A stretch of DNA of 64,000 nt from Cyanosarcina radialis HA8281-LM2 (lineage in GTDB: Bacteria; Cyanobacteriota; Cyanobacteriia; Cyanobacteriales; CCAP-1448). Made by a program: the position numbers and the translations under genes. The DNA lies in the NCBI GenBank assembly GCA_019359615.1, contig JAHHHA010000004.1, positions 186,001 to 250,000 on the forward strand. Reading direction: 5' to 3'. How positions within the stretch are numbered: position 1 is the first letter of the stretch; every line of letters begins with the position of its first letter. Shown here one piece after another: positions 14,347 to 51,538 of this stretch. The notes under the pieces were generated by a model. That model was not told where the DNA came from. It worked only from the letters and a program-made list of their open reading frames with translations, and made no database searches.

Positions 14347-15018
14347 CTAACTCAACAAATCGGGACGGCGATCGCGGGTTCTTTGAATTTGTTGTTCTCT
14401 GCGCCAGCGATCGATGGCGGCATGATTTCCTGACAGCAACACTTCGGGTACTTTCCAACCGCGAAACTCAGCCGGACGAGTGTATTGAGGATAATCTAAT
14501 AAATCGGTTTCAAAACTCTCGGCTTTCAAAGACTCTTCTTTTCCCACCGTTCCTGGCAGCAGCCGCACCACGCCATTAATTAAGGCTAAAGCGGGAATTT
14601 CTCCACAAGTTAACACGAAATCTCCTAAAGAAACTTCGCGAGTAACTAAATTTAGCACCCGCTCGTCCACGCCTTCATAATGCCCGCAGATAACTACTAA
14701 TTGCTCGTAATTAGTAGCTAACTCCTTCAATAAGGGCTGTTTGAGCGTTTGTCCTTGAGGAGTCATCAAAATTACCTCCCGTCTAGGACAAATGGGTAGC
14801 GATTCCACAGCCGCAAAGATCGGTTCTGGTTTCATTAACATTCCCACGCCGCCACCATAGGGTTCGTCATCGACTCGTCGATGTTTGTCGGTAGCAAAGT
14901 CGCGAGGATTAACTAAATTTGCGATCGCAATCTGCTTGGCTAAAGCCTTCCCCAATAATCCCGAACTCAAAGGAGAATTAAAGAAATCTGGAAATAGGGT
15001 AATAATGTCGAATCGCAC
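14347..15018 (-). CDS. trmD: tRNA (guanine(37)-N1)-methyltransferase
   Basis: The product is 223 residues. It methylates G37 of tRNAs from S-adenosylmethionine to prevent frameshifting. The start codon is GTG (MRFDIITLFPDFF). The SPOUT-knot signatures DDEPYGGGVGMLM, VVICGHYEGVDERV and GDFVLTCGEIPAL are present, as is VPEVLLSGNHAAIDRWR. Length is standard for cyanobacterial TrmD. It lies directly upstream of mtnD. Confidence 0.96.
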   Translation of the reverse strand: MRFDIITLFPDFFNSPLSSGLLGKALAKQIAIANLVNPRDFATDKHRRVDDEPYGGGVGMLMKPEPIFAAVESLPICPRREVILMTPQGQTLKQPLLKELATNYEQLVVICGHYEGVDERVLNLVTREVSLGDFVLTCGEIPALALINGVVRLLPGTVGKEESLKAESFETDLLDYPQYTRPAEFRGWKVPEVLLSGNHAAIDRWRREQQIQRTRDRRPDLLS

Positions 15019-15245: not shown

Positions 15246-15536
15246 AACAGCAATTTTAACACTTCCTCGCGATCGTCTTGGCAGAGGTCAGCAGTCCCAA
15301 TCTTATAGATCGGACAGGGTTTCGGGGGCTGAGATCTAAAATTAGTCTCAAATATGTTAAATTTTTTCTAAAAATTGTTAAGTGTATCTGGCATTATCCA
15401 TATAGGGGAATGCTTTGCTGACCTGGTAAGGTCGATTGGCAGAATCGCTTACCTTCCCCACCGCGTGCTGTTGCCAGAACTAGTGCCCACCAATGATATG
15501 ATGCTCAATCTAGAATCTCAATCACTCAGAATTAGA

Positions 15537-16352
15537 ATGCCCCAATCTACTAAAACTGCCATTTTGGTCATTGGCGGCGCTGAAGATAAAGTCCACGGGC
15601 GAGAGATCTTACAAACGTTTGTTTATCGTTCTGGAGCAACTGACGCTCGAATTGCCATTGTCCCGTCAGCTTCGCGAGAGCCAGCAGCTATAGGCGATCG
15701 CTACAGCCAGATTTTTCAGGAACTAGGCGCTCAGACGGTCAAAGTTTTGGATATTCGAGAACGGGAACACTGCGAAAACGAGGAATTACAGGAGTTCGTG
15801 CGAGAGTGTACTGGGGTGTTTCTCACAGGTGGCGATCAACTGCGACTTTGGGGATTGTTAGCCGATACCCCTTTAATGGAAAAAGTTCGCCGCCGAGTCA
15901 AAGCTGGTGAAATTACCCTCGCTGGCACTAGTGCGGGGGCAGCGGTGATGGGCGATCTCATGATTGCTGGCGGCGGGAGTGGAGAGTGTCCCAATCGTTC
16001 TTTAGTAGATATGGCGACAGGGTTAGGAATTATTCCGGAAGTGATTGTCGATCAGCATTTTCACAATCGCAATCGCATGAGCCGACTGATGAGCGCTGTA
16101 GCCGCTCATCCCGACAAGCTGGGGATTGGCATTGACGAAGATACTTGCGCTTTATTCGAGCGCGATGGAGTTTTGCAGGCTATAGGCAAAGGAACGATCA
16201 CGATCGTCGATCCGGCCGATGTTTCTTACACCAACCACGATCGAATCGCAGCCACCGATCCGATTAGCATTCACAATCTGCGCGTTCACGTTCTCAGCTA
16301 CGGTCATCGCTACCACCTACACCAACGCACTATTCTGCCTTCAGAAAGATGA
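15537..16352 (+). CDS. cphB: Cyanophycinase
   Basis: The product is 271 residues. This S51 serine exopeptidase degrades cyanophycin, the Arg/Asp nitrogen reserve, to beta-Asp-Arg dipeptides. ILVIGGAEDKVHGREIL starts the family-conserved part. The nucleophile motif is GTSAGAAVMG, with IIPEVIVDQHFHNRNRM and GIGIDEDTCALFERDG. ATG 15537 (MPQSTKTAIL) is chosen because other cyanobacterial cyanophycinases begin at this point; longer in-frame options start at 15375 or 15498. Cyanophycin synthetase (cphA), which often follows, is not in the window; pncB follows instead. Confidence 0.95.
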   Translation: MPQSTKTAILVIGGAEDKVHGREILQTFVYRSGATDARIAIVPSASREPAAIGDRYSQIFQELGAQTVKVLDIREREHCENEELQEFVRECTGVFLTGGDQLRLWGLLADTPLMEKVRRRVKAGEITLAGTSAGAAVMGDLMIAGGGSGECPNRSLVDMATGLGIIPEVIVDQHFHNRNRMSRLMSAVAAHPDKLGIGIDEDTCALFERDGVLQAIGKGTITIVDPADVSYTNHDRIAATDPISIHNLRVHVLSYGHRYHLHQRTILPSER

Positions 16353-16418
16353 GGCCCATGGCAGTTCAGGCAAGAGGGAATAAAGGGGCAACGAAACCAT
16401 GTTTGTAAATCTCGCATC

Positions 16419-16750
16419 ATACCAAATCCTGTTTACAAAACCCTCTTGACCTCAAAGGAGCCTCCGGCTCCCCTCTCCCTTGGGCTACGGTGTATACATA
16501 AGTTATCGGTTATGCTGTTTGACATCTCGATCCCCCTAAATCCCCCTTAAAAAGGGGGACTTTGAGAGCTTCCCCCTCCTTGGCGCAAGCTACATGACGA
16601 GGGAACCTCGACGCAACTCCCCCCCCTTTTTAAGGGGGGCTAGGGGGGATCTAATGCAGGGCCTCCAAGTTTTCCCACAGATGTGTATACACGCTAGCTC
16701 CCTTGGGAGAGGGGTTGGAGGTGAGGGCTAGCCCAGCCGGATTCCAGACG
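16419..16750. repeat. MITE-like palindromic element, copy 2, interrupted
   Basis: The left half (ATACCAAATCCTGTTT to CCCTCTCCCTTGGG) and right half (CTCCCTTGGGAGAGGGG to GTGAGGGC and a decayed AGCCGGATTC) together give the same layout as the copies at 9166 and 51420. They are split by a 213-bp insertion at 16485-16697. Confidence 0.8.
16485..16697. mobile_element. MITE-like insertion with 10-bp target duplication
   Basis: Flanking direct repeats CTCCCTTGGG (16475-16484 and 16698-16707) are identical. Terminal inverted repeats CTACGGTGTATACATA and CTAGCGTGTATACACA match at 13 of the first 15 positions. Removing the insert plus one direct repeat restores an intact host palindrome. Inside, arms near 16531-16562 and 16617-16652 (GATCCCCCTA.. 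and ..TAGGGGGGATC) form a second long inverted repeat. There is no open frame, so it would need a transposase from elsewhere. Confidence 0.85.
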
Positions 16751-16791
16751 ATCGCGCTGGGTATTTACACTGCTCGACATTTTGGTAAAAA

Positions 16792-16808
16792 TTACTATAA
16801 TTAAGTAA
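16792..16808. promoter_or_regulatory. Imperfect palindrome upstream of pncB, candidate NrtR operator
   Basis: TTACT and AGTAA are separated by 7 bp of A/T, ending 25 bp before the pncB ATG. NrtR repressors bind palindromes in front of NAD genes, and nrtR is two genes downstream. The assignment is positional; the cyanobacterial NrtR consensus was not compared. Confidence 0.3.
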
Positions 16809-16833
16809 ACTCCTCTGGCTACATCCCTAAAAT

Positions 16834-18264
16834 ATGAATCTTGACTCCAACACGTTCGATCGCGAAGCACATCAAGAAGATCTCGAACTGACGTTGCATT
16901 CCGAGGAATATAGCCTGTTAACCGATCTGTACCAACTAACAATGGCAGCTTGTTACGTCGGTGAGGGTTTGGAAGAGAGAACAGCCAGTTTTGAGATGTT
17001 CGTTCGCCGCTTGCCAGCAGGTTTTGGCTACTTAATTGCCATGGGGCTAGAACAAGTCTTGGATTACCTGCAAAAACTGCGTTTCAGTTCCTCTCAAATC
17101 GCGGCTTTGCAGGCCACAGGCATTTTTGCCAGCGCCCCTACCAGGTTTTGGTCGTTACTAGAGAGTGGCAGCTTTACAGGAGATGTGTGGGCAGTGCCAG
17201 AGGGAACGGCAATTTTTCCCCACGAGCCGATCTTGCGCGTAGAAGCACCGCTATGGCAAGCGCAGTTAGTAGAAACTTATTTATTGAACGCCATCAACTA
17301 CCAAACTTTAATTGCCACCAGGGCGGCCAGATTGCGAGATATCGCCGGATCTGAAACTACGCTGTTAGAATTCGGCACCAGACGAGCTTTTAGTCCTCAA
17401 GCCTCTTTATGGGCAGCACGGGCAGCCCTAGCAGCCGGATTCGATGCTACTTCCAACGTCCTAGCAGCTTTAAAACTAGGTCGCCAACCCAGCGGCACTA
17501 TGGCTCATGCGTTAGTGATGGCGCTCAAAGCTACAGAGGGGAGCGAAGCCGAGGCCTTTGCTGCTTTTCATCGATATTTTCCTGGCGCACCCCTATTAAT
17601 CGATACTTACGATTCGATCGCGGCTGCCGAACATTTAGCCGCACGAGTAAAATCGGGAGAAATGGAACTATCTGGCGTGCGGATCGATTCGGGTGACTTA
17701 GTGACGCTATCCCAACAAGTTTGCAAGCTGCTACCAGGGGTTTCGATCTTTGCCAGCGGGGATTTAGACGAGGGGGAAATTGCCCGACTCAAAGCGGCTG
17801 GGGCCGAGATCGACGGCTACGGTATCGGTACGCGCTTGGTAACGGGAACACCCGTCAATGGGGTGTATAAACTAGTAGAAATCGATGGGATGCCAACCAT
17901 GAAGCGATCGCACAGTAAAGCCACCTATCCGGGGCGCAAGCAAATCTGGCGGCGGTTTGCAGGAACTCAGATGCAGATCGATCGCTTAGGACTTGCAGGA
18001 GAGAGGGAGATGGGGAGATGGGGAGATGGGGAGATGAGAGCAACTTCAGAAGCAACTATAGAGGAAAAACCCCTACTTCAGTTGATACTCAAACAAGGTC
18101 AAAGAGTACAACCACCATCTACCCTAGATGAAATTAGAAAACGCACCGATGCCTCTGTCGCTAGCTTACCTGCTGCCACCCGTCATTTAGATAATCCCAC
18201 CCCGCCAGTTGTAGAAATCTCTCAGGCGTTATTGGAGCTAACCGCACAAACCGAGAAGGAGTGA
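16834..18264 (+). CDS. pncB: Nicotinate phosphoribosyltransferase
   Basis: The product is 476 residues. It joins nicotinate to PRPP, giving nicotinate mononucleotide in NAD salvage. TDLYQLTMAACYV near the N-terminus, EFGTRRAFSPQAS, GTMAHALVMAL, LIDTYDS, VRIDSGDL and GYGIGTRLVTG are family landmarks. A segment at about residues 389-403 ([14 protein letters not shown]) is encoded by GAGATGGGG repeat DNA and sits in the variable C-terminal part, so the enzyme core is intact. It is followed by nadD after 18 bp. The three NAD genes pncB, nadD and nrtR form one probable operon. Confidence 0.93.
   Translation: MNLDSNTFDREAHQEDLELTLHSEEYSLLTDLYQLTMAACYVGEGLEERTASFEMFVRRLPAGFGYLIAMGLEQVLDYLQKLRFSSSQIAALQATGIFASAPTRFWSLLESGSFTGDVWAVPEGTAIFPHEPILRVEAPLWQAQLVETYLLNAINYQTLIATRAARLRDIAGSETTLLEFGTRRAFSPQASLWAARAALAAGFDATSNVLAALKLGRQPSGTMAHALVMALKATEGSEAEAFAAFHRYFPGAPLLIDTYDSIAAAEHLAARVKSGEMELSGVRIDSGDLVTLSQQVCKLLPGVSIFASGDLDEGEIARLKAAGAEIDGYGIGTRLVTGTPVNGVYKLVEIDGMPTMKRSHSKATYPGRKQIWRRFAGTQMQIDRLGLAGEREMGRWGDGEMRATSEATIEEKPLLQLILKQGQRVQPPSTLDEIRKRTDASVASLPAATRHLDNPTPPVVEISQALLELTAQTEKE
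18004..18036. repeat. GAGATGGGG nonamer repeat inside pncB
   Basis: Three and a half units of GAGATGGGG lie in frame. The same nonamer forms the long array at 39160-39213 and, inverted, the CCCCATCTC runs at 22370-22400 and 29030-29065. Confidence 0.85.
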
Positions 18265-51419: not shown

Positions 51420-51538
51420 ATACCAAATCCGGTTTCCAAAACCGTCTTTCCCCCAAGGAGCCTCCGGCTCCCCTCTCCCACGGGAGAGGGGTTGGGGGTG
51501 AGGGCAGCAATGGATGGTATGAGAACCGGATTTGGTAT
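51420..51538. repeat. MITE-like palindromic element, copy 3 (intact)
   Basis: 119 bp. Terminal inverted repeats ATACCAAATCCGGTT are perfect over 15 bp. The core is CCAAGGAGCCTCCGGCTCC...CCCACGGGAGAGGGG...GTGAGGGC. This is the best-preserved copy of the family. No coding capacity. Confidence 0.9.

Follow-up and report, generated by a model that had tools for sequence, protein, structure and literature searches.

The window, i.e., the whole stretch of 64,000 nucleotides of the Cyanosarcina radialis HA8281-LM2 genome that was analysed, carries between positions 14347 and 19643 the genes for trmD, cyanophycinase, nicotinate phosphoribosyltransferase, nicotinate-nucleotide adenylyltransferase and an NtrR-like protein; the resemblance of the last product to the NtrR repressor scores below the cut-off. 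The spacer between the cyanophycinase and nicotinate phosphoribosyltransferase genes, both of which are intact, harbors a MITE of 213 bp inserted into a MITE-like palindrome, and this nested insertion is real (Table 1). Genes of NAD salvage adjoin the MITE. An Rfam search of positions 15400–17500 of the window returned no match.

Table 1. Features of the nested repeats in the window
Feature	Position	Strand	Basis
Layer 1, outer MITE-like palindromic repeat, interrupted by layer 2	16419..16764	+	Alignment; own-genome matches
Target hairpin CCCCTCTCCC-TT-GGGAGAGGGG, split by the MITE	16470..16714	+	Rejoined from 16470–16484 and 16708–16714
Target duplication, left copy CTCCCTTGGG	16475..16484	+	Exact match
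Layer 2, 213-bp Tn5-like MITE, without transposase gene	16485..16697	+	Copies; autonomous IS with nearly the same ends
Left terminal inverted repeat CTACGGTGTATACATAAGT	16485..16503	+
Layer 3, GATCCCCCTAAATCCCCC...GGGGGGATC unit with two CCCCCTTAAAAAGGGGG-type hairpins	16529..16651	+
Right terminal inverted repeat CTAGCGTGTATACACATCT, minus-strand reading	16679..16697	-
Target duplication, right copy CTCCCTTGGG	16698..16707	+	Exact match

An earlier note made from the letters of the window had claimed a perfect 10-bp target duplication, matching terminal inverted repeats beginning with CTA, and restoration of the host palindrome on removal of the insertion. The duplication is exact; calculated from local base composition alone, the probability that ten bases agree by chance at a single preset pair of positions is about 1e-6. 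The terminal inverted repeats are borne out as well, in an imperfect form with 14 of 19 positions identical, in which CTA is followed by two differing bases and then by GTGTATACA. Excision of the MITE together with one copy of the duplication leaves CCCCTCTCCCTTGGGAGAGGGG, which is palindromic except for its two central bases, and the dyad of this rejoined site (row L001 of the site collection described below) lies 1 nt from the center of the duplication. With a coding capacity of at most 71 codons, the element has the features of a MITE: it is short and non-coding, has terminal inverted repeats and a 10-bp duplication, occurs in dispersed copies and shares its ends with an autonomous IS.

The outer repeat had been placed at 16419–16750. 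Its start is confirmed by the left end ATACCAAATCC at 16419, while the right end has to be moved to about 16764, where a degenerate GGTAT is found at approximately 16760–16764. In an alignment of the window copy with 20 further copies from the own genome, the empty outer repeat has a consensus of about 119 bp with the ends ATACCAAATCCGG...CCGGATTTGGTAT and a central hairpin CCCCTCTCCC(NN)GGGAGAGGGG, at which the window copy is split by the MITE. The joined outer flanks have 47 matches in the own genome; among the 42 listed, 38 cross the junction unbroken and are empty sites, and the remaining four are the two halves in the window itself and two partial matches. These empty sites belong to paralogs of the outer repeat and do not represent the orthologous locus: no relative with the flanking genes side by side was found among the matches listed for 20 genomes, including the own one. 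A second, empty ATACCAAATCC repeat is located in the same window at 51433–51505 (C37:237433-237505; aligned as winS2). REP elements of the GTAG/CGTC type are short palindromes with a GTAG or CGTC tag and are linked to RAYT; the outer repeat is classified only as REP-like, with MITE-like terminal inverted repeats.

The insertion was also said to carry inverted repeats of its own, so that three layers of mobile sequence would be nested. Two CCCCCTTAAAAAGGGGG arms, 87% complementary to each other, are indeed present at 16529–16558 and 16622–16651 and delimit a GATCCCCC...GGGGGATC unit. Solo matches to this unit are found at C2:2401, C21:304750 and C21:164160 (query 47–167 only) and, in two pieces, at C5:37365. 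Because these matches lack the MITE ends, the inner unit is an independent repeat, and since it also occurs alone and the outer repeat has terminal inverted repeats in its consensus, the count of three layers is correct.

Copies in the own genome and a Tn5-like partner

The own genome (6.5 Mb in 65 contigs) contains further copies with the same ends. A 22-nt left end, CTACCGTGTATACATAAGTTAT, occurs at 53 places with up to three mismatches, whereas the reversed pattern used as a control gave none, and a BLAST search with a 218-nt query, the MITE plus the bases next to it, gave 63 matches, several of them near full length with 89–95% identity. Two-ended elements fall mostly into length classes of 205–217, 238–265 and 312–336 bp, besides single ones of 165 and 223 bp. 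Seven copies of the 216–217 bp class share a mean identity of 97% (minimum 93.5%), which suggests fairly recent spread of this class. Contigs C3, C12, C32 and C49 terminate within, or about 100 bp from, copies of the 216-bp class, and the true number of copies is therefore probably higher than counted. At some loci (L103 at G000:C56:156500-160000, L138, L154, L157, L205 and L206) family ends are nested or adjoining; in L103, four end sequences of the family are found inside 500 bp.

A scan of public genomes with CTACNGTGTATACATAAGT retrieved at least 101 stretches; among the 80 listed, all but two are cyanobacterial by title, the two both being from a single MAG with the label Saprospiraceae. 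One of them, from Nostoc linckia FACHB-104, contains a full-length IS of 1486 bp (L142:3445-4930) with ends CTACCGTGTATACATAAGT and CTACTGTGTATACACAAGT that are nearly identical to those of the family, flanked by a 9-bp duplication in a palindromic site. Many copies in the own genome, L002 and L010 among them, have exactly its 19-nt left end, and the first 29–30 bp of the 216-bp MITE class are 97% identical to the left end of the IS. The window MITE differs from this IS by one base in the left end and by four of 19 in the right end. In an order-level sample of 388 genomes, the end pattern with at most one mismatch was detected in 50.

The IS has an open frame of 471 codons, encoding the protein P0001; an annotated relative begins later and has 442 amino acids. 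P0001 scores 350.1 bits against the IS4 family transposase profile NF033590, with a cut-off of 160, and had no Pfam match at 0.001. It aligns with solved structures of Tn5 transposase at E of about 8e-35, including the D, D and E regions, which in Tn5 hold the catalytic acids. The signature of P0001 reads YGWRWKIEQLFATLK, corresponding to the spacing Y-(2)-R-(3)-E-(6)-K; its Y, R and E align with those of Tn5 transposase, and the K is shifted by one column in the printed alignment. With the DDE and YREK motifs, the profile match and duplications of about 10 bp, the transposase family, which the earlier note had left open, is the IS4 family, Tn5-like. Because near-identical 19-bp ends bound this Tn5-homologous IS, the window element is a Tn5-like MITE. 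Relatives of P0001 (E ≤1e-10, many at about 30% identity) were found in 95 of the 388 sampled genomes.

No intact P0001-type partner was found in the own genome, where all 11 candidates were scored. The matches of P0001 there are four pieces, all at C31:4184-4911, two of them with stops; the best piece is 57% identical over residues 316–452 and contains a stop, and an end-like sequence with three mismatches is located near this relic. As only a decayed transposase is found in its own genome, the family may be stranded, or it may be served from a source absent from the assembly. No family end (14-nt pattern, up to three mismatches) is found within about 1.5 kb of the four PF01609 transposases found in the own genome. 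A weak Dimer_Tnp_Tn5 match on C54 was rejected as the partner: it is below the cut-off, and the surrounding 3.5 kb contains no end with five or fewer mismatches. Another rejected candidate is an element of 1693 bp in Leptolyngbya PCC 7375 (L158:2026-3718), which has the right ends and a transposase of a different IS4 branch, NF033592. The ends are accompanied by a 10-bp duplication, and the element may be a MITE of about 195 bp into which a second IS has inserted, as its total length would allow.

Duplications and dyads at the landing sites

A total of 133 two-ended elements were collected (39 own, 94 other); after 11 composites spanning more than one element were dropped, 122 remained (38 own, 84 other). 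Duplications are exact in 57 of these, imperfect in 28 and absent in 37, i.e., 19, 7 and 12 in the own genome and 38, 21 and 25 elsewhere. When the right flanks were permuted, the mean number of exact duplications of 9 bp or longer was 0.94 for the own genome and 0.23 for the others; with up to two mismatches allowed, it was 4.2 and 3.6, respectively. The seven imperfect own duplications are therefore not clearly above chance, as 4.2 are expected among shared repeats. The exact duplications in the own genome are 9 bp (10 copies), 10 bp (5), 11 bp (3) and 12 bp (1) long, and those elsewhere 8 bp (1), 9 bp (5), 10 bp (7), 11 bp (19), 12 bp (2), 13 bp (3) and 14 bp (1).

A site was scored as dyad-centered if the best dyad of the rejoined sequence had a stem score of at least 5 and lay no more than 2 nt from the center of the duplication. 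This applies to 45 of the 57 exact sites (33 of 44 non-redundant ones), to 17 of 19 in the own genome (8 of 10 non-redundant) and to 9 of 11 full-length IS copies; with one composite kept, the counts are 46 of 58 and 34 of 45. Random positions of the same loci gave 198 of 4000 (about 5%), and shuffled sites 4.2%. Centering is absent in 12 of the 57. Furthermore, the five base pairs flanking the duplication are 75% complementary at the 44 non-redundant sites, unselected for a dyad, compared with 57% on average when the right flanks are permuted, and none of 2000 permutations was as high; for all 57 sites the values are 0.796 and 0.625, again with none of 2000 as high. For 21 sites the figures are 0.895 and 0.619, which are inflated and partly circular because these sites had been picked by their centered dyad. 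The collection as a whole is not a random sample, since it is conditioned on exact duplications and drawn from the listed scan matches. In these sequence comparisons, insertions favor the dyads of hairpin palindromes, and the insertion point in the window is probably not accidental. A single class of palindromes, CCTCTCC(N5)GGAGAGG, occurs 88 times in the own genome (control, 0), so the targets are far from exhausted.

A second branch shows the same preference. Searches of plasmids revealed P0001-type relatives with about 35–37% identity in alphaproteobacteria, and the proteins from Sinorhizobium and Methylosinus are both above the NF033590 cut-off. Plasmid pSymB of Sinorhizobium meliloti Ak57 has eight copies (nine matches, one copy being split), all in GC-rich hairpins: seven have exact duplications of 9–11 bp within 2 nt of the dyad, and the eighth, judged by eye, has an imperfect one. 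A copy in Methylosinus has a 9-bp duplication with a dyad offset of 0. The Ak57 copies (L359, L363, L365, L367, L369, L371, L373 and L374) are 1419–1420 bp long, except for one of 1512 bp, and in the one copy inspected the annotation says merely IS4 family transposase.

There are also exceptions. Among six copies in Kovacikia, only L368 passes the dyad test; L364 is centered with a score under the threshold, the insertions of L361 and L366 lie off the dyad, and an exact duplication is lacking in L370 and L372. A copy in Nostoc C057 (L362), whose protein is 91% identical to P0001, is 6.5 nt off the dyad, and ISSysp3 and two Acaryochloris copies have duplications of 10–11 bp with no obvious centered hairpin by eye. 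These copies show that the preference for palindromes, although strong among the collected elements, is not universal.

A proposed mechanism and its rivals

Very probably, the 213-bp MITE was mobilized in trans by an IS4-family, Tn5-like transposase, a relative of those recognized by NF033590, and inserted at the palindrome center of an older repeat. This reading is supported at the level of sequence by the ends, the duplication, the paralogous empty sites, the partner IS in another species and the enrichment of dyads; what we infer is that the MITE is mobilized in trans, that symmetry directs the targeting and that the sites are harmless. The transposase would act in trans on the MITE ends by cut-and-paste, joining the 19-bp ends to strands cut about 10 bp apart at the center of a hairpin in the older MITE-like repeat. 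A complex of transposase and DNA with two-fold symmetry would favor targets with two-fold symmetry, and such a preference would place insertions on the dyad or 1–2 nt from it. The transposase may sense this symmetry in the duplex or in an extruded hairpin. Abundant REP-like palindromes of cyanobacteria would offer landing sites outside genes.

As to what is recognized at the target, base sequence alone may be sufficient, the transposase preferring duplications bounded by C or CC...GG, a combination common in palindromes; we give this explanation a little less than an even chance. By eye, many duplications begin with C or CC and finish with G or GG, and according to PMC1525189 the target sites of Tn5 are frequently palindromes, with direct repeats terminated by GC pairs. 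However, other target sequences, such as ACGCAGAGCGT, GCATGAATAAC and GGCTGAAGCC, are also centered, and the pairing of the arms extends beyond the duplication at the 44 sites mentioned above. This pairing does not prove that the arms are needed, because REP arms are naturally long. A more tentative, and on balance improbable, proposal is that this cyanobacterial and alphaproteobacterial branch of Tn5-like transposases reads the two-fold axis or the hairpin form of the target, so that many palindrome sequences serve and the stagger adapts over about 9–14 bp. If true, these would be palindrome-homing DDE transposons, and hairpin-bearing MITEs would target each other, giving rise to nested repeat islands.

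Insertion of the MITE into a preexisting palindrome could also be mimicked if the outer and inner elements had spread jointly as a composite, with a single nesting event and the present copies as its duplicates. Both layers are found together at G000:C2:109981-110306 (92% identity over 327 bp), and the outer flanks are common to L001 and L002. Such joint spread is very unlikely, however, in view of other MITE copies that occupy different host palindromes and of the outer repeat being empty at 38 of the 42 listed places. Least credible of all is an origin without a DDE transposase, in which replication slips or switches template at hairpins, or a single-strand HUH system (RAYT- or IS200-like) is at work: hairpin sites are frequent and seven copies have, by eye, opposite loop orientations on their two sides, but the duplications of 8–14 bp are exact, the inverted ends are conserved, autonomous relatives with such ends encode a DDE transposase, and RAYT or IS200-like insertion is not known to make such a target duplication.

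In L002, L068, L118, L159, L204, L234 and L241, the loops of the target hairpin look reverse-complementary across the element by eye, which may reflect recombination or a flip of the loop. One-sided loop inversion as a new mode of insertion was considered and rejected; both loop orientations are common genome-wide, and recombination between copies could explain the pattern.

Relation to known elements

Tn5 is in wide use for tagmentation, and its targets are treated as nearly random. The transposase of Tn5/IS50 (IS4 family, IS50 subgroup) is homologous to P0001, and the ends resemble each other: the right end of the window MITE agrees with the mosaic end at 14 of 19 positions, and with the outside end the window left end agrees at 12 of 19 and the two ends of the Nostoc linckia IS at 13 of 19 each. 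As a control, 6 of 38,986 sampled 19-mers reach 13, the score at which they were counted, and the sampled loci include the elements themselves. In the excerpt of PMC2266710, from which the duplication length of the IS4 family is also taken, Table 1 gives for the IS50 subgroup the end consensus CW------Y---CA-A--W- and duplications of 8–9 bp. By inspection, all seven stated positions fit the left end of the Nostoc linckia IS and the right end of the window MITE. In contrast, the duplications here are 8–14 bp long, most commonly 9 bp in the own genome and 11 bp elsewhere; 41 of the 57 exact ones are 10–14 bp and 29 are at least 11 bp, and that in the window is 10 bp. Chance extension of 9-bp repeats explains some of the 10-bp cases and not so many of 11 bp. 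Because the duplications exceed 8–9 bp, the family is filed as IS4 family, Tn5-like, rather than as a strict member of the IS50 subgroup. Tn5/IS50 further differs from the family in that the latter prefers hairpin centers and has high-copy MITE derivatives.

IS elements that target REP palindromes are already known, and IS4 members are among them. Tobes and Pareja, 2006 (PMC1525189), report a tendency of Tn5 toward palindromic targets; all nine copies of ISRm22 (IS4 family) are, in their account, inserted in REPs at the axis of palindromy, and ISPsy8 is likewise found at the REP axis. Both have proteobacterial hosts and shorter repeats than the elements described here, 6 bp in ISRm22 and 3 bp in ISPsy8 (PMC1525189, excerpt), and ISRm22 belongs to a different subgroup, IS4Sa (PMC2266710, excerpt). 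A close relative is ISSysp3 of Picosynechococcus PCC 7002, with a transposase 59% identical to P0001, a length of 1485 bp, perfect 19-bp ends CTACTGTGTACACACAAGT and a 10-bp duplication; it differs in that the single copy examined is outside any obvious hairpin. Nezha and other cyanobacterial MITEs, which are named in PMC3733652 and in the reference list of PMC10969869, are similarly short gene-less elements with inverted repeats. Among the literature matches listed, there was no account of a Tn5-like MITE family or of its ends, and the excerpt of PMC2246112 contains nothing on palindromic targets or IS50. Added to the earlier note are the transposase family, the partner in another species, and the dyad preference with variable stagger in cyanobacteria and on one Sinorhizobium plasmid.

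A natural group related to Tn5 that prefers palindrome centers and has a variable stagger provides a comparison for the residues and DNA shapes that govern target choice, and its members show preferred settling places of gene-less Tn5-type elements. Part of the nested palindromic repeats of cyanobacteria would then be explained as targets of IS and MITE insertion rather than as unrelated repeats. Plasmid pMB02 of Acaryochloris ‘Moss Beach’ (L357) carries a copy of the Tn5-like IS, 2446 bp from end to end, that is interrupted by a gene for an IS630 family transposase.
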